Part shown: positions 29,412-37,657 of the stretch, piece by piece
Layout of the letters: every line of letters begins with the position of its first letter
Numbering within the stretch: position 1 is the stretch's first letter
Origin: Chloroflexota bacterium
Lineage (GTDB): Bacteria > Chloroflexota > Limnocylindria > QHBO01
DNA: 50,773 nt
Direction of reading: 5' to 3'
NCBI GenBank assembly: GCA_040902225.1
Contig: JBBDXT010000004.1
Coordinates: 3,187 to 53,959 of the forward strand
Notes under the pieces: model-generated
Database searches by the model: none
Seen by the model: only the letters and a program-made list of their open reading frames with translations
What the model was told of the DNA's origin: nothing
Program-made: the position numbers and the translations under genes

Positions 29412-31232
29412 TTGAACCGATTCGCGAAGCTCGCCGTCGCCGCCGCGATCGCAACCTACGTGCTGATCGTCGTCGGCGGGCTGGTGCGCGCCACCGATTC
29501 AGGCCTCGGCTGCCCGGATTGGCCGCTCTGCTTCGGCGACTGGGTCCCACCCGCCGACCTGCATGCCTGGATCGAGCACAGCCATCGTCTCGTCGCGGCG
29601 CTCGCGGTTGGGCCGCTGGTCGCGGCAGTGGGGCTGATCACCCTGTTCAGTGCGCGGCGCCGCGATCGCCCGCTCCTGGCGGCCGCACTGGTTACGGGCA
29701 TCCTCGTCATCCTGCAGGCGTGGCTCGGCGGCCAGGTCGTGATCCAGCTACTCCGCGCAGAGTTGGTGACGGCCCATCTGGCGATGGCGCTGACGGTCCT
29801 GGCGCTGACGATCGTCATCGCTGATCGCGCCATCAATGGAGCGATGCCGCCAGCAGCCGGCGGGCTGCCGGGCGCGCTGGTGGCGGTCACGGGCCTCGCG
29901 GTGTTCGCCCAGATGCTGCTCGGCTCGTGGGTCGCCGGCACGGGCGCCGGCCTTGCATTCCCGGACTTCCCGCTGATGCACGGGCGCCCGTGGCCGTCGA
30001 CCGCGGCGAACGGAGAGGTCGTCCAGCTCGCGCATCGTGCGCTGGGGGTCGCGGTCGCGCTCTTGGTGGTGTGGACCGCGAGCCGGGTCCGCCGCACCGT
30101 CGCAACGCCGCGCACGCGATGGCTCGCGGGCCTCGCCGTGGTATTGGTCCTGGTCCAGATCGCGCTGGGAGCGGCCAACGTGTGGTCACGCCTGTCGGCG
30201 CTGTTCGTGGTGCCACACCTCGCCGTCGGGGCCGCCCTGTGGGCCACGATCGTGCTGCTCTACCTGGCGCTCCGACGCTCCCCGGCGCCCGAGGCCTCGA
30301 CCCAGCGGCCCTCCGCGCTCGACGAGGCAGCGAGCGCCGCCCCATCGTCGAGCCTCGGCGAGTCGCTGCGCGCGTATCTCGCGCTCACCAAGCCGCGCAT
30401 CATCGAGCTGCTGCTGGTGACGACCATCCCCACCATGGTGCTGGCACAGCGCGGGGTCCCATCGGTGTGGCTGATGGCTGCGGTGGTCCTGGGAGGCTCT
30501 CTTGCCGCCGGTGGCGCCAACACCATCAACATGTACCTCGACCGGGACATCGACGACCTGATGCGACGGACCCGGCACCGACCCTTGCCACGCCACGCCG
30601 TGACGCCCGGACGCGCCCTGGCCTTCGGGATTGCACTGAGCTTCCTGTCGTTCGTCTGGTTGGCGATCACCGTCAACCTGCTCTCGGCGCTCCTGGCGGC
30701 GAGTGCGATCGGCTTCTATGTCTTCGTCTATACCCTGTGGCTGAAGCGATCGACACCGCAGAACATCGTCATCGGTGGCGCGGCCGGCTGCGTTCCGGTC
30801 CTCGTCGCCTGGGCAGCGGTGACGGGAACCGTGGAGGTGCCGGCGCTGGTGCTGTTCGCGATCGTCTTCTACTGGACGCCGCCCCATTTCTGGGCGCTGG
30901 CCCTCCACTATCGCGGCGACTACGCGGCCGCCAACGTGCCGATGCTGCCGGTGGTGCGTGGCGAGGCCGAGACGGCGCGCCAGATCGTGGTCTACACGAT
31001 CCTGCTGGTGGTGGTCTCGCTCCTCCTCTTCCCGGCGGCGCGGATGGGGCTCATCTACCTGGTTTCCGCCGTGGTCCTCGGTGCAGGCTTCGTCTGGTAT
31101 GCGCTGCGGGTCCTGCGCGACACGACCGATGGTCGGGCGGCGATCCGCCTCTTCCGATTCTCGATCAGCTACCTGACGTTGCTGTTCGCGGCCGTGGCCG
31201 CCGATTCGTTGCTGCGGCTCGGGCCGGGCTGA
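29412..31232 (+). CDS. ctaAB: CtaA-CtaB fusion: haem A synthase plus protohaem IX farnesyltransferase
   Basis: 606 residues from TTG 29412, with GAGG about 8 nt upstream. Residues 1-290 are CtaA: RATDSGLGCPDWPLCFG (the cysteine pair), WIEHSHRLVAAL, LVTAHLAMAL, LAHRALGVAVA and VPHLAVGAAL supply the haem-ligating histidines. After a 30-residue linker (Ser/Ala/Pro) the CtaB part begins at LTKPRIIELLLVTTIPTM, with NTINMYLDRDIDDLMRRT, the prenyl-diphosphate Asp motif, and YWTPPHFWALALHYRGDY. The two enzymes make haem O then haem A for the oxidase encoded downstream. In most bacteria they are separate genes. Confidence 0.95.
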   Translation: MNRFAKLAVAAAIATYVLIVVGGLVRATDSGLGCPDWPLCFGDWVPPADLHAWIEHSHRLVAALAVGPLVAAVGLITLFSARRRDRPLLAAALVTGILVILQAWLGGQVVIQLLRAELVTAHLAMALTVLALTIVIADRAINGAMPPAAGGLPGALVAVTGLAVFAQMLLGSWVAGTGAGLAFPDFPLMHGRPWPSTAANGEVVQLAHRALGVAVALLVVWTASRVRRTVATPRTRWLAGLAVVLVLVQIALGAANVWSRLSALFVVPHLAVGAALWATIVLLYLALRRSPAPEASTQRPSALDEAASAAPSSSLGESLRAYLALTKPRIIELLLVTTIPTMVLAQRGVPSVWLMAAVVLGGSLAAGGANTINMYLDRDIDDLMRRTRHRPLPRHAVTPGRALAFGIALSFLSFVWLAITVNLLSALLAASAIGFYVFVYTLWLKRSTPQNIVIGGAAGCVPVLVAWAAVTGTVEVPALVLFAIVFYWTPPHFWALALHYRGDYAAANVPMLPVVRGEAETARQIVVYTILLVVVSLLLFPAARMGLIYLVSAVVLGAGFVWYALRVLRDTTDGRAAIRLFRFSISYLTLLFAAVAADSLLRLGPG

Positions 31233-31235
31233 CGG

Positions 31236-32192
31236 TCAGTCGGCCGGCGGAGGCAACCCGGCGATTCGGGCATCCTCGCGCGCGTCGGCGCGGGCCGTGC
31301 GCCGGTCCTCGGCTCGCACCCAGGCGCCCACCACGAGCCCCATCGCCAGCAGAAAGACGACGTCGCCGCCGACCCACATCAGCATGCCACCCACGCTCTG
31401 ATCGACAGTCGGGGTCGGCCCCCACGTGCGGAGGTTGGTCAGGTAATGGGGGTAGAGGGCGGCAGGTGCGCTCATCAGGGCGATCCCCAGGAACGAGTTC
31501 TGGGGCATGGCCAGGAACAGGTAGAAGAGCCGCACCGGGTGCGGCAGCCGCCATCGGGCAGGGTCGGCGGCCACCACCGGCCACCAGAAGAGGAGCGCGG
31601 CACCGAGGAAGGTGACGTGCTGGAGGTCATGCAGCCAGGGGGTCTCGAGGGCCTGGTCGTAGAGTGTGCTGAAGTGCCAGCCCCAGTTGACCGCGGCGAA
31701 GAGCACCCACGCCAGCAGCGGGAAAGAGAGCACGGTCACGACCCTGCTGTGCAGCACCGCAAGCAGCGGGCCACGCACCGATGGCGACGCCGCGCGCAGC
31801 GCCAGCGTCGCTGGCGCTCCGAGCAGCAGCAGCGGAGCGGCGACCAGCTCGAGCAGCATGTGTTGCAGCATGTGCACGCTGAACAGCGCTCCCTCGTAGG
31901 CCTCGATCGGGGAGGTGAGGGCCAGCGCCAGGACAGCCAGGCCGGCGAAGAAGGCGGCGCTTCGCCAGGCGGGATGCGGATGACCGGGGTGCTTGGCGGC
32001 CACGCGCCGCAACAGGATCACCCAGGCCGTGGCCGCGATCGCCAGCGGCAGGAGCACGATCGGCTCCAGTCGCCATTCGAGGAGCACCTGCGGAAAGGTG
32101 GGCTCCGGTACCGAGCTGCCATGGGCCAATGACGGTGCCGGGATGGCCAAGGCCAGACCTGTCGCGATGAGGGCGCCGAGCCTGCGGTGCAT
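31236..32192 (-). CDS. ctaG: CtaG-type cytochrome c oxidase assembly protein
   Basis: 318 residues, Bacillus-type CtaG (caa3 assembly factor). It starts with a signal-like helix (ALIATGLALAIPAPSLAHG) and has about seven further spans. Family histidines: LFSVHMLQHMLLELVAAPLLLLGAP, NWGWHFSTLYDQAL and LHDLQHVTFLGAALLFWWPV. It is thought to help deliver copper to subunit I. It converges with ctaAB, 3 nt apart. Confidence 0.92.
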   Translation of the reverse strand: MHRRLGALIATGLALAIPAPSLAHGSSVPEPTFPQVLLEWRLEPIVLLPLAIAATAWVILLRRVAAKHPGHPHPAWRSAAFFAGLAVLALALTSPIEAYEGALFSVHMLQHMLLELVAAPLLLLGAPATLALRAASPSVRGPLLAVLHSRVVTVLSFPLLAWVLFAAVNWGWHFSTLYDQALETPWLHDLQHVTFLGAALLFWWPVVAADPARWRLPHPVRLFYLFLAMPQNSFLGIALMSAPAALYPHYLTNLRTWGPTPTVDQSVGGMLMWVGGDVVFLLAMGLVVGAWVRAEDRRTARADAREDARIAGLPPPAD

Positions 32193-32270
32193 GACCGTCG
32201 CATTCTGGACGCCGACGCAGCTGCTCGCAGGTCGGCGGAACCTCCGCGCCCCGTCACGCGTCCGACGCCC

Positions 32271-33167
32271 ATGAAACGAATCGCCCGCCCCGTGCTGCCC
32301 GCCGCCCTGGCCCTCTCCCTGCTCGCCGCGTGCTCCTCCGGGTCAGGTGGTTCGAGCGGCCCGATCGCGCACCCATCCGGCGATGACGTGATCCTGCGGG
32401 TCGAGTTCGGCGGGGGCATGATTCGCGACTTCCACCTCATCAGCTTTCCCACGTTCACGCTGCTCGGCGATGGCCGCGTCATCGTGCCGGGTGCGCAGAT
32501 CGACATCTTCCCCCAGCCTGCGCTGCCGGCGGTCAGCGTCCGGAAGCTCACCGAGGACGGCATCCAGACCGTGCTCAAGGAGGTCGCGCGCACTGGCCTC
32601 TTCGGCACCAGCGCCGAGTTCCGTGGCGCCGAGAACTTCACGACCGATGCGGGTGACACCATCTTCACGCTGCACGCCGAGGGCAAGGACGTGACGATCA
32701 CGGTCTACGGGCTCGGGGCGTTCGACGCCCCCGGCAACTACCCCGGCGTCTCGGCGGACGAGCTGGCGGCGAATCAGGCGTTGTCGCGGCTCTCCCAGCA
32801 GCTCGGCAACCTCGATGCCATGGTCGCTGCCAGCGCGTGGGCCGACGCCGGCTGGCAACCCTATGAGCCAGAGGCGCTGCGGCTGCTGGTCCGCAACGCG
32901 GACGCCGATCCGCCGGACGAGAGTGGAATCGCCAACGCGCTGCTTGACTGGCCGGTCGATTCGGACCCGACCACCTTCGGCGATGCAACGTCCGACGGAG
33001 AGCGACGGTGCGGTGTGGTGAGCGGCCAGGAGGCGGAGGACTGGTACGCGGCGCTCGCCGGTGCGAACGGCCTGACTCGCTTCGTGAAGGGCGAGCACAA
33101 GTACGAGGTCACGGTCCGCTTCCAGCTGCCGGACGAGCCGTTGGAGTGCCCCATCCCGCCCGTGTGA
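32271..33167 (+). CDS. Lipoprotein of unknown function next to the oxidase cluster
   Basis: 298 residues. A signal peptide (RIARPVLPAALALSLLAAC) with lipobox LAAC is followed by SSGSGGSSG, typical of a lipid-anchored exported protein. The rest is beta-rich (ILRVEFGGGMIRDF, FTLLGDGRVIVPGAQ, DTIFTLHAEGKDVTITVYGLG). Two cysteines near the C-terminus (RRCGVV and LECPIPPV) may pair. I recognise no family. It is divergent from ctaG and upstream of coxB, separated from the latter by a hairpin. Confidence 0.75.
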   Translation: MKRIARPVLPAALALSLLAACSSGSGGSSGPIAHPSGDDVILRVEFGGGMIRDFHLISFPTFTLLGDGRVIVPGAQIDIFPQPALPAVSVRKLTEDGIQTVLKEVARTGLFGTSAEFRGAENFTTDAGDTIFTLHAEGKDVTITVYGLGAFDAPGNYPGVSADELAANQALSRLSQQLGNLDAMVAASAWADAGWQPYEPEALRLLVRNADADPPDESGIANALLDWPVDSDPTTFGDATSDGERRCGVVSGQEAEDWYAALAGANGLTRFVKGEHKYEVTVRFQLPDEPLECPIPPV

Positions 33168-33346: not shown

Positions 33347-34414
33347 ATGCCACGACCGATGGCCCGACCGCGGATTCGGGTCCTCCTTCGCGCCGGAGCT
33401 TGGCTCGCGCTGGCTCTCCTGGCCGCAGCCTGCGGCATGGTGCCTCCCGAGCCGCACACCGTCGAGGCCAAGGAGGTCTTCTGGCTCTACAACGTGATCC
33501 TCGTGATGGGCGGCATCGTCTTCGTCGCCGTCGAGGGCTTCATCGTCTACTCGGTCGTTCGCTATCGCCGTCGCGACGATCGGCTACCGACCCAGGTCCA
33601 CGGCAACAACCTGGTCGAGCTGATCTGGACCGCGATTCCGACCGTGATCGTGCTCATCCTCTTCGTCCTGTCGACGCTCACCCTCAACTCGATCTCAAAG
33701 GCATCCACCCCCGGTGTCACGATCGAGGTGGTGGGCAAGCAGTGGTCGTGGGTCTTCCACTACCTCGACGACGATGGGGATCCGGCGAATGACGTTATCG
33801 TCGAGGGCACCGCGCTCAATGGCCTGGTGATGGCCCTTCCAGTCGGGGAGCCGGTGAAGCTCAGGCTGATCTCCAACGACGTCATCCACTCGTTCTTCGT
33901 GCCGGCGTTCCTGGTGAAGATCGACGTCGTCCCGCTGCCGGAGGGCAAGCCGCCCAACGAGCTCTCGTTCACGGTCAGCGAGGTGGGGACCTACAGCGGG
34001 CAATGCGCGGAATTCTGTGGCCTCCGCCACGCCGACATGACCTTCAGCGTGGAGGCCATGTCGCGCGCCGACTTCGATGCCTGGGTCGCGGCCATTCGCT
34101 CCGGTGAGACGCCTGCGCCCTCGGTCCCGGCCGAGGCCACTGTTCTGAAGGTCAGCGCCGATGACACCGCCTTCGACACCAAGGCGCTCGAGGTGGCCGC
34201 CGGCCAGACTTTCAAGATCGAATTCGCCAACAACGAGGACGTCGATCACAACGTGGGGATCTGGAAGGGCGGCGAGGAGCTCTTCCGCGGGGAGATCTTC
34301 GCCGGCCCCGCGACGAAGACGTATGTCGTCGATGGCCTGACGGCGGGCGAGTACACCTTCATCTGCGACGTCCACCCGCTGCCGGCGATGACCGGCACGC
34401 TGACGGTCAAGTAG
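33347..34414 (+). CDS. coxB: Cytochrome c oxidase subunit II with extra C-terminal cupredoxin domain
   Basis: 355 residues from ATG 33347; ATG 33359 is an alternative. The N-terminal export signal has lipobox LAAAC (Cys29). Two spans follow (about 48-70 and 92-112). The CuA domain is complete: HSFFVP (His181), then CAEFCGLRHADM with Cys220, Glu222, Cys224, His228, Met231. After 20 linker residues a second copper-type cupredoxin domain (263-355) has His301, Cys340 (FICDVHPL), His343 and Met348, a full type-1 set. Many caa3 enzymes instead carry a fused cytochrome c here. The extra domain could be a built-in electron donor to CuA. That role is inference. Confidence 0.93.
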   Translation: MPRPMARPRIRVLLRAGAWLALALLAAACGMVPPEPHTVEAKEVFWLYNVILVMGGIVFVAVEGFIVYSVVRYRRRDDRLPTQVHGNNLVELIWTAIPTVIVLILFVLSTLTLNSISKASTPGVTIEVVGKQWSWVFHYLDDDGDPANDVIVEGTALNGLVMALPVGEPVKLRLISNDVIHSFFVPAFLVKIDVVPLPEGKPPNELSFTVSEVGTYSGQCAEFCGLRHADMTFSVEAMSRADFDAWVAAIRSGETPAPSVPAEATVLKVSADDTAFDTKALEVAAGQTFKIEFANNEDVDHNVGIWKGGEELFRGEIFAGPATKTYVVDGLTAGEYTFICDVHPLPAMTGTLTVK

Positions 34415-34435: not shown

Positions 34436-36088
34436 ATGGCAACCACGGCCCTGACCCCAACCTCCGAGGGCTACCGCCGTTCGTGGGTGATCGAGTGGTT
34501 GACCACGGTCGACCACAAGAAGATCGGGATCCTGTACATCGTAAACTCGTTCGCCTTCTTCTTCGCCGCGGGCATCCTGGCGGTAGTGATGCGCTCAGAG
34601 CTGGCGGTGCCGGGACTCCAGTTCCTGGACGAGTCGACCTACAACCAGGCCTTCACGATGCACGGCACGATCATGATCTTCCTGTTCGTGGTGCCGGTCC
34701 TGTCCGGCTTCGCGAACTACATCGTGCCGCTCCAGCTGGGCGCGCCCGACATGGCGTTCCCGCGCATCAACGCCCTCAGCTTCTGGTTCCTGCCGCTCGG
34801 CGGCCTCCTCATCTTCTCCGGCTACCTGTTCGGTGGTGCGGCGGCGGAGGGCTGGACGCTGTACACCCCACTGAGTGGCAGCACCTACGCGCAGGGGGTG
34901 GGGACCGACCTGTGGCTGATCGGGCTGCTGCTGGTGGGCACCGCCTCGATCCTCGGCTCGGTCAACTTCATCGCCACCATCTTCAAGATGCGGGCGCCGG
35001 GGATGACCCTCTTCCGGATGCCGATCCTGGTCTGGACGGTGCTGGTGACCGCGACCCTCATCCTGCTCGCCACGCCGGTCTTTGCGGCGGGCATGATCGC
35101 CCTCTTCATCGACCGCAACTACGGCGGCAGCTTCTTCGACCCGACCACCGGCGGCAACCCGATCCTGTGGCAGCACCTCTTCTGGTTCTTCGGCCATCCC
35201 GAGGTGTACATCGTCATCCTGCCGGCGATGGGCGTGGTGAGCGAGATCCTGCCGGTCTTCACCCGGCGCCCGCTCTTCGGATACCGAGCCTTCGTGTTCG
35301 CCACGATCGCCATCGGCCTGCTGAGCTTCAGCGTGTGGGCGCATCACATGTTCACGACCGGGCAGGTCTTCCTGCCGTTCTTCAGCTTCATGACCGCCCT
35401 GATCGCGGTGCCCACCGGCGTGAAGATGTTCAACTGGCTGGCGACGCTGTGGCGCGGCTCGATCATCCTGGCCACGCCGATGCTCTTTGCGCTCGGCTTC
35501 CTGTCGATGTTCCTGATCGGCGGGATCAGCGGCGTGATGCTCTCCGCCCCGCCGATCGACTTCCACCTGCAGGACACCTACTTCGTGGTCGCGCACCTGC
35601 ACTACGTCTTCTTTGGCGGCAGCGTCTTCGGTGTCTTTGCGGCGACCTACTACTGGTTCCCCAAGATGACGGGCCGACGCCTGAACGAGCCGCTCGGCAA
35701 GGTCCACTTCTGGATGCATTTCATCGGCTTCAACCTCGCCTTCTTCCCGCAGCACATCCTCGGCATCCAGGGGATGCCGCGTCGCGTCGCCGACTACTCA
35801 CCCGATGCCGGCTGGACGCTGCTGAACCTGGCGTCGACGGCGGGATCGTTCCTGATCGCCGCAAGCGTGCTGCCGTTCCTGGTGAACGTGGTCGCCACCT
35901 TCATCAACGGCGAGCGGGTGGGGGACGACCCTTGGGAGGGGAACACGCTGGAATGGGCCACCAGCTCGCCGCCGCCGCCCTACAACTTCGACACGCTGCC
36001 GCCGATCCGCAGCGAGCGACCGGTCTTCGACCTTCGTCACAAGCACGACGTCGAGCACGTCACCGCTGCGAAGGTGGAGGACCAGTGA
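34436..36088 (+). CDS. coxA: Cytochrome c oxidase subunit I
   Basis: 550 residues, twelve or more spans. Key residues are visible: TMHGTIMIFLF (low-spin haem His), WFFGHPEVYIVILP (CuB His, the proton-channel Glu and the cross-linked Tyr), WAHHMFTTG (two CuB His), PTGVKMFNW (K-channel Lys) and VAHLHYVFFGG (haem a3 and haem a His). The Glu in HPEVY marks an A1-type haem-copper oxidase. The C-terminal 50 residues are hydrophilic. It starts 21 nt after coxB and overlaps coxC by 4 nt. Confidence 0.97.
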   Translation: MATTALTPTSEGYRRSWVIEWLTTVDHKKIGILYIVNSFAFFFAAGILAVVMRSELAVPGLQFLDESTYNQAFTMHGTIMIFLFVVPVLSGFANYIVPLQLGAPDMAFPRINALSFWFLPLGGLLIFSGYLFGGAAAEGWTLYTPLSGSTYAQGVGTDLWLIGLLLVGTASILGSVNFIATIFKMRAPGMTLFRMPILVWTVLVTATLILLATPVFAAGMIALFIDRNYGGSFFDPTTGGNPILWQHLFWFFGHPEVYIVILPAMGVVSEILPVFTRRPLFGYRAFVFATIAIGLLSFSVWAHHMFTTGQVFLPFFSFMTALIAVPTGVKMFNWLATLWRGSIILATPMLFALGFLSMFLIGGISGVMLSAPPIDFHLQDTYFVVAHLHYVFFGGSVFGVFAATYYWFPKMTGRRLNEPLGKVHFWMHFIGFNLAFFPQHILGIQGMPRRVADYSPDAGWTLLNLASTAGSFLIAASVLPFLVNVVATFINGERVGDDPWEGNTLEWATSSPPPPYNFDTLPPIRSERPVFDLRHKHDVEHVTAAKVEDQ

Positions 36089-36708
36089 CCGTCCAGGTCC
36101 CGACCAGCATGAGCGCGGACATCACCACTCACACCGAGCTGGCGCACCGCAAGGCGGGGATGCCGACCCCGCTGGTCGGGATGCTGCTCTTCATCGCCAG
36201 CGAGGTGATGTTCTTCGGCGGGCTCTTTGCCTCCTATTTCAACGCCCGCGCGGTCCACATCGGGGAGTGGGGGCCGCCGACCGGGGCGCCGGAGCTGGAG
36301 ATCCTGCCGATCGCCCTTCCGATCACGATCATCCTGGTGGCTTCGAGCTTCGCGATGCAGTTCGGGGTATGGGCGATCCGTCGCGGCGACCAGCGCGCGA
36401 TGCGCAACTGGACGCTGCTCACCCTGGTACTGGGGGTGATCTTCCTGATCGGGCAGATCTACGACTACACCACGCTGGGCTTCGGGATCAGCGACGGGGC
36501 GTTCGGGACCGTCTTCTACACGCTCACCGGATTCCACGGCGCGCACGTCTTCGGCGGGGCGGTCGGTCTCACCATCCTGGCGGCGCGAGCGTCCCAGGGC
36601 CAGTTCAGCAAGCAGAACCACGTGGCGGTCGAGGCGATCAGCTTCTACTGGCATTTCGTGGACGTGGTCTGGATTGCCCTCTTCAGCACGCTGTACTTCC
36701 TGCGTTAG
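36085..36708 (+). CDS. coxC: Cytochrome c oxidase subunit III
   Basis: 207 residues from GTG 36085 (GTGA overlap with coxA). It is the short, five-span form of subunit III. Markers: GMLLFIASEVMFFGGLFASYF, LTGFHGAHVFGG and AISFYWHFVDVVWIALFSTLYFL. The conserved Glu in SEVMFF and the final WHFVDVVW are diagnostic. Confidence 0.95.
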   Translation: MTVQVPTSMSADITTHTELAHRKAGMPTPLVGMLLFIASEVMFFGGLFASYFNARAVHIGEWGPPTGAPELEILPIALPITIILVASSFAMQFGVWAIRRGDQRAMRNWTLLTLVLGVIFLIGQIYDYTTLGFGISDGAFGTVFYTLTGFHGAHVFGGAVGLTILAARASQGQFSKQNHVAVEAISFYWHFVDVVWIALFSTLYFLR

Positions 36709-36720
36709 GAGGCTGATCGA

Positions 36721-37068
36721 GTGACGGACGCCGCCTTCGGATATCTGCTGTTGGCGATCGGCATCACCTTCGTGCTGGGCGTCGTGTACGCCATCACCAG
36801 CCACGTCAGCGTTTCCACGGTGAGGCCCAGGCCGCCGCGTGGCGTCCATCTGCCGAACCCGAGCGCGCTGCCCGTGATCCTGGCCGTGGGCGGGGCGCTG
36901 CTGGGCGCCGGCCTTGCATTCCGCACCGACGACCAACTCGCCAATCCCTTCCTGGCGATCCCCGGCCTGCTCATCTTCCTGTACGCAGTGGTGGCCTGGG
37001 TGCGTGCTGCCGGCCGCGAGTGGGACGAGGTCGAGCGCGGGCCGCATGATGACACCGCCGGGCATTGA
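36721..37068 (+). CDS. Small membrane protein, cytochrome oxidase subunit IV-like
   Basis: 115 residues from GTG 36721, 12 nt after coxC, with GAGG about 9 nt upstream. Spans: FGYLLLAIGITFVLGVVYAI, PVILAVGGALLGAGLAF, and FLAIPGLLIFLYAVVAWV. The position after coxC and the size match subunit IV of bacterial oxidases, but sequence similarity is weak; the call rests mainly on context. Confidence 0.65.
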   Translation: MTDAAFGYLLLAIGITFVLGVVYAITSHVSVSTVRPRPPRGVHLPNPSALPVILAVGGALLGAGLAFRTDDQLANPFLAIPGLLIFLYAVVAWVRAAGREWDEVERGPHDDTAGH

Positions 37069-37075
37069 CGCGTCC

Positions 37076-37657
37076 ATGACTGCTACGACCGGCGAACCGA
37101 TCGGCCGAGCCGCGCGGCGGGGCGGCGCGGGTCGCCTTCCGCGCTGGTATTACGCCGCCGCAGCGATCGCTCCATTCCTGATCCTCGCCGTCTGGGGCAC
37201 GGTCCTGTTGGCCGGGCGCGCCCCCGCGCTGGCCCGGGTCGGCGAGCCGGCACCGGCGTTTGTGCTAGCCGATCTCGACGGGAATCCGCTGAGCCTCAGC
37301 GACCTGCGCGGACGCCCGGTGATCGTCAACTTCTGGGCGAGCGACTGCGCTCCGTGCATCGATGAGTTCCCGCTGCTGTCGTCAACAGTCGCGGCCCACA
37401 AGGACGACGGGCTGGCGGTGGTGGGGATCGTGGTCGGCGATACCTCGGAGGCGGCGCGCGACTTCCTGGCGCGCATGGGAGCGACCTGGCCATCGGCGAT
37501 GGACCCCGGCGACGCGGTCGCCAGGCAATACGGCATCATCGGGCCACCCGACTCCTTCTTCATCAACCGCGACGGGATCGTGGTGAGCCGCCGCATCGGC
37601 CCGCTCAACGCTGCCGAGATGGAGCGCAGGCTGGCAGGCATCCTGGGAGAGGAGTGA
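37076..37657 (+). CDS. TlpA/ResA-like membrane-anchored thioredoxin
   Basis: 193 residues. One N-terminal anchor (YYAAAAIAPFLILAVWGTVLLAG) precedes an AhpC/TSA-like thioredoxin fold with the redox site FWASDCAPCIDEF (CxxC), then VVGIVVGDTSEAARDFL and GIIGPPDSFFINRDGIV (cis-Pro loop). Such proteins reduce disulfides of oxidase copper centres or of apocytochrome. The location in the cox operon suggests maturation of CuA or the cupredoxin site, which is inference. ATG 37046 is an alternative start. Confidence 0.88.
   Translation: MTATTGEPIGRAARRGGAGRLPRWYYAAAAIAPFLILAVWGTVLLAGRAPALARVGEPAPAFVLADLDGNPLSLSDLRGRPVIVNFWASDCAPCIDEFPLLSSTVAAHKDDGLAVVGIVVGDTSEAARDFLARMGATWPSAMDPGDAVARQYGIIGPPDSFFINRDGIVVSRRIGPLNAAEMERRLAGILGEE

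Follow-up and report, generated by a model that had tools for sequence, protein, structure and literature searches.

How do electrons enter an aa3-type oxidase whose subunit II ends in a predicted copper domain? We addressed this question in a 50,773-nucleotide stretch of a Chloroflexota contig (JBBDXT010000004.1; hereafter the window), in which a sequence-only reading had placed a further cupredoxin with His301, Cys340, His343 and Met348 after a complete CuA domain of the oxidase subunit CoxB. Both its residue numbers and its coordinates proved exact. We consider it likely that this C-terminal domain is a tethered blue-copper electron-entry module of the plastocyanin/amicyanin type, the copper counterpart of the cytochrome c of caa3 oxidases, and we infer for it copper occupancy and a redox role, with the direction of transfer and the partner set out below.

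Oxidase locus and subunit II architecture

The oxidase genes of the window run in the order coxB, coxA, coxC and a subunit-IV-like gene, followed by a ResA/TlpA-like gene, with CtaG and a CtaA-CtaB fusion encoded upstream:

29412..31232, + strand: CtaA-CtaB fusion, haem A synthase and haem O synthase (COX15-CtaA and UbiA/CtaB joined in a single 606-aa frame)
31236..32192, − strand: CtaG, caa3-type assembly factor
32187..33167, + strand: lipoprotein-like 326-aa open reading frame in the ctaG-coxB interval, without a Pfam match
33347..34414, + strand: coxB, aa3-type oxidase subunit II with a C-terminal cupredoxin, 355 aa (uninterrupted open reading frame; Pfam, TIGR02866)
33458..33673, + strand: COX2_TM of CoxB, two transmembrane helices, residues 38–109 (Pfam)
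33716..34060, + strand: CuA domain of CoxB, ligands H181, C220, E222, C224, H228 and M231 (Pfam, alignment)
34097..34135, + strand: short Pro/Ala/Ser-rich linker joining the two copper domains, residues 251–263 (sequence, alignment)
34136..34411, + strand: predicted type-1 (blue copper) cupredoxin domain of CoxB, residues 264–355 (Pfam, fold, ligand alignment)
34247–34249, 34364–34366, 34373–34375 and 34388–34390, + strand: codons of the cupredoxin ligands H301, C340, H343 and M348, respectively
34436..36088, + strand: coxA, subunit I (TIGR02891 CtaD above cut-off)
36109..36708, + strand: coxC, subunit III (Pfam)
36721..37068, + strand: small subunit-IV-like membrane protein, homologue of a cupredoxin-bearing protein of sister families, here without the cupredoxin
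37076..37657, + strand: ResA/TlpA-like thiol-disulfide protein, start inferred; possibly a CuA-cysteine reductase

The N-terminus of CoxB is lipoprotein-like, with LLAGC or LLSGC in relatives, and the core has the features of an A-type subunit II: COX2_TM is joined by a COX2 match at residues 125–237 (E 1.4e-17), TIGR02866 (CoxB) scores above its cut-off, the full CuA set is present as H181 and the motif C220-AEFCGLRHADM231, and coxA and coxC adjoin. All six CuA ligands are invariant in an alignment of 21 CoxB sequences. The best PDB sequence match of the core is 2yev, and the best Foldseek matches of the full-length AlphaFold2 model are all subunit II structures. The model has a pLDDT of 85.4 and a pTM of 0.67, a value that leaves the relative placement of the CuA and cupredoxin domains unsure. 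With the caa3 oxidases of Thermus (2yev) and Rhodothermus marinus the window protein shares both this core and a redox domain of about 120 aa that follows CuA at the C-terminus, but in caa3 that domain binds haem c, whereas window CoxB carries a predicted type-1 copper cupredoxin and has no CxxCH anywhere in its sequence. Lacking a C-terminal CxxCH haem c on subunit II, the window protein is, by its sequence, a functional analogue of caa3 subunit II and not a member of the caa3 group. The position, similar length and missing haem motif of the tail all agree with the earlier proposal that a copper site here takes the place of the caa3 haem c.

Pfam assigned residues 261–354 to Cupredoxin_1 (E 4e-12; 46.5 bits, cut-off 27) and residues 267–355 to Copper-bind (E 4e-7, above cut-off). 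Sequence comparison of the cupredoxin domain alone with the PDB matched auracyanin A, amicyanin and plastocyanin, and H301, C340, H343 and M348 each aligned onto one of plastocyanin's four type-1 copper ligands, giving the His...Cys-x2-His-xn-Met ligand set of known sites. We take the Cys-x2-His-x4-Met (CxxHxxxxM) spacing to be that of plastocyanin and the short His-to-Cys loop to be amicyanin-like. Modelled alone with AlphaFold2, the domain adopts a Greek-key cupredoxin fold (pLDDT 91.7, pTM 0.81) that Foldseek matched to amicyanin and auracyanin (TM 0.80–0.81 by query length), to plastocyanin, and further to the copper-bound Cupredoxin_1 protein 4hcf, FtrB and EfeO; the Cupredoxin_1 family also takes in proteins outside electron transfer, of which EfeO and FtrB are present among these fold matches. 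Scores against the plastocyanin equivalog TIGR02656 (25.1 bits; cut-off 87.85) and the amicyanin equivalog TIGR02657 (22.6 bits; cut-off 110.2) fall below threshold, and the domain is best described as a predicted fold relative of plastocyanin and amicyanin that belongs to neither equivalog.

All 48 distinct CoxB cupredoxins examined retain the four ligands, and so do the modules on subunit-IV-like proteins (9/9) and cytochromes (8/8). Only 10 columns of the cupredoxin domain are invariant in an eight-sequence alignment, and all four ligands are among them. The last loop of the CoxB cupredoxins differs in length between homologues although the ligands are kept, and conservation in all 48 sequences despite this variation rules out a chance occurrence of the ligand set.

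Haem and copper tails among CoxB relatives

Among the best 80 named loci nearest to window CoxB, 65 carry haem c (CxxCH) after CuA, 7 a type-1 copper domain and 7 neither domain, and one has no scorable frame. The seven copper-bearing loci are the nearest of all to the query, and six have Chloroflexi titles. The seventh, L051 (JAICUY010000029.1), is titled Steroidobacteraceae, yet its CoxB is typical of the window's Chloroflexota family and the match agrees with one of that family's genomes (G008); an error in the title or binning of the record is probable. Two Actinomycetota loci (L059 and L095) had nearly full-length matches, but both proved to be haem fusions.

In a tree built on the CoxB core without the C-terminal tail, 41 of 43 copper-bearing rows fell into one branch (SH-aLRT 97), which also includes a few CoxBs with no additional domain and one whose cupredoxin is of a different type; outside it nearly all CoxBs of the tree carry haem. 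Two loci of family f19 in the same phylum (L201 and L202) have a divergent type-1 copper tail (CKFHEANNM) and stand apart from the main copper clade, apparently representing an independent origin of the fusion. Since nearly all copper-bearing CoxBs belong to one well-supported clade, the copper tail is a lineage trait and not an artefact.

Of the 177 genomes of the class, those with matches spanning the CuA domain and the cupredoxin include 18 of 22 in the window's own family, where the remaining four are less complete, and about 54 of the large family f3 among the matches listed; in families f2 and f4 the members read have the haem form of CoxB. Recurrence of the fusion in 18 of 22 own-family genomes and in many f3 genomes rules out an assembly error, and conservation across many independent contigs rules out an annotation artefact. 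The haem-for-copper replacement put forward by the sequence-only reading is thus backed by the count of 65 haem against 7 copper loci and by the separate copper clade, and the architecture that it described recurs in the window's own family and in f3.

Two other variants of CoxB with such a tail were observed. The CoxB of L215 (G037:C95, family f5) has a different cupredoxin-like tail (CNIAGHYAQGM) together with an altered CuA motif (CSAFCG). At L203, L204 and L044, from other Chloroflexota and G055, a second kind of CoxB with the motif RLQCxxLCG has a cupredoxin tail.

Possible electron partners and the shared cupredoxin module

We surveyed the window's genome (G000, 99% complete) through family searches and selected stretches. 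It encodes a single CoxB and, on a different contig, a bc complex made up of a split cytochrome b, the Rieske protein and a di-haem QcrC. A family search for NrfD gave no match in this genome, which therefore shows no sign of alternative complex III (ACIII). Pfam identified only two class-I cytochrome c proteins, QcrC and a small one beside a second oxidase, and revealed no obvious soluble class-I cytochrome c, a search that divergent or non-class-I types may escape. Several separate cupredoxins are encoded, the nearest to the CoxB domain being a 139-aa lipoprotein with 39% identity. The genome also holds a second protein of the haem-copper family, weakly CcoN-like, with a membrane-anchored mono-haem cytochrome (L160:4959-7053, G000:C7).

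On the reading we favour, menaquinol electrons would enter the split cytochrome b/Rieske/di-haem QcrC complex and pass from QcrC to the tethered type-1 copper of CoxB, either directly or via a small cupredoxin of the genome, from where they would move to CuA of the same subunit, to haem a and on to the haem a3-CuB site. An electron path through the tethered domain to CuA had been suggested from the sequence alone; it gains indirect support from the bc complex with its di-haem QcrC, from the separate cupredoxins, from the lack of an NrfD/ACIII hit in the genome and from the replacement of the second QcrC haem by the copper module in sister families, described below. Alternatively, the CoxB domain could be fed chiefly by soluble or dehydrogenase-linked cupredoxins, with the bc complex bypassed. 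The 139-aa lipoprotein would suit such a route, as would a 666-aa frame at L046:4107-6104 (G000:C7), named by sequence reading as soluble-sugar-dehydrogenase-like, which ends in a cupredoxin and is a possible electron donor. We regard this bypass as unlikely: the genome has a full bc complex, and in family f3 the swap is located in the bc complex itself, an indication that the main route from quinol to oxygen is involved.

Two further respiratory proteins of families f3 and f5 end in the same cupredoxin. The first is the cytochrome encoded beside cytochrome b, which has one haem and a copper domain in f3 (L038, L040, L041 and L043) and is of the same kind in f5 (L209-L211), whereas its counterpart in the window's family has two haems. 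An alignment pairs the first haem domain of QcrC from the window's genome with the single haem domain of f3 QcrC (33% over 110 aa), and the f3 copper domain therefore stands where the second QcrC haem would be. The second, encoded after coxC, is a polytopic protein with a weak relationship to Cyt_c_ox_IV. It is a homologue of the window's subunit-IV-like protein and ends in a cupredoxin at L037, L039, L041, L042, L056, L057, L211, L214 and L218. Of these three hosts, CoxB is the only one on which the module was found in the window's own family. In three f3 genomes (88–92% complete) the haem-copper QcrC was the only PF00034 protein found. This pattern suggests that copper has taken over part of the job of cytochrome c in these bacteria.

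The wider occurrence of the module bears on two explanations that leave electron entry aside. One holds that the CoxB domain serves copper delivery or storage, keeping Cu(I) ready for the CuA or CuB site while standing outside the electron path; the domain is predicted to bind copper, it adjoins CuA, and genes for copper-site assembly, encoding CtaG and the ResA/TlpA-like protein, lie in the cluster. The conserved ligands here, however, make up a complete H-C-H-M type-1 set spaced as in plastocyanin (CxxHxxxxM), whereas the sites of copper chaperones are usually of the Met/His or CxxxC kind. The domain moreover sits where an electron-transferring haem c sits, in CoxB and in f3 also in QcrC. 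All hosts keep the type-1 set in full, even QcrC, in which there is no CuA that could be loaded; this lowers the standing of copper delivery, which we judge quite improbable, and that of mere docking.

In a tree of the modules, built on a short alignment of 105 columns and with many forks open, the grouping follows lineage instead of host protein. Thirteen modules from one part of f3, drawn from all three hosts, form a branch with support of 100/99, and trees in which the CoxB, QcrC or subunit-IV modules each form one clade were rejected (p_AU 0.0002–0.0003). Repeated copying or gene conversion would explain this grouping. In a docking role, the modules would chiefly join the bc complex to the oxidase in a supercomplex, with copper of secondary importance. 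Such a role would likewise predict lineage-wise likeness among the three f3 hosts through mutual or common docking, but it would not need the strict ligand conservation seen in all of them, and within the window's own family no host other than CoxB was found with the module; we hold it to be very improbable.

Returning to electron entry through the tethered domain, we tentatively extend it to a broader proposal, plausible though short of an even chance: this class of Chloroflexota may have rebuilt the connection from bc complex to aa3 oxidase out of one interchangeable blue-copper module, copied repeatedly among CoxB, the subunit-IV-like protein and QcrC, where it replaced a haem, the second of two. 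Modules within a lineage would then resemble one another because they exchange electrons mutually or with one shared cupredoxin, in a quinol-to-oxygen chain that operates without soluble cytochrome c.

Relation to known redox modules

At the electron entrance of this A-type oxidase, haem c is replaced by a predicted type-1 copper site, with a parallel exchange in the bc complex of sister families. These bacteria thus offer a natural test of the interchangeability of respiratory-chain redox modules, and of the way electrons travel from a quinol-oxidising to an oxygen-reducing complex without an evident soluble cytochrome c; the copper domain of CoxB is a small, expressible object for spectroscopy. 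In open-licence full text, where silence is weak evidence of novelty, we found no description of an A-type bacterial CoxB (CuA subunit) with an added type-1 domain, including in Chloroflexota. Association of ACIII with a caa3 oxidase and direct electron transfer through the extra haem have been discussed (PMC8552683).

Blue copper proteins act beside oxidases in several archaeal systems. Sulfocyanin is the blue copper protein of the SoxM supercomplex, placed between a bc-like complex and the oxidase, and halocyanin is an oxidase substrate in archaea (PMC3062577). The SoxM arrangement in Sulfolobus acidocaldarius, where the oxidase is of the aa3 type (PMC3062577), is akin to that proposed here, but sulfocyanin is a separate protein, whereas the copper domain of the window is a covalent part of subunit II. 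The SoxM set of a separate sulfocyanin gene, fused subunits I and III, and Rieske and cytochrome b genes is not what the window encodes: coxA and coxC are separate, and the bc genes lie on another contig. In some haloarchaeal ba3 (B-type) oxidases halocyanin is fused to the small subunit IIa (PMC3128077), which likewise joins a blue copper domain to an oxidase component; that fusion is archaeal, of B type and on the small helix IIa, in contrast to the fusion on the CuA subunit described here.

Closer to the Chloroflexota, a cupredoxin occupies the place of haem c in the second subunit of eNOR, and cupredoxin fusions have been described for nitrite reductases of Chloroflexi (PMC8756737). Subunit II of eNOR resembles window CoxB in that a cupredoxin replaces haem c in a haem-copper enzyme. 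The systems differ in that eNOR and the Chloroflexi enzymes reduce NO and nitrite, and eNOR subunit II has a cupredoxin fold and not a CuA domain with an additional type-1 domain. Plastocyanin, amicyanin and auracyanin have the same fold and four ligands as the window domain, but they are separate carriers, whereas the window domain is tethered to its oxidase.
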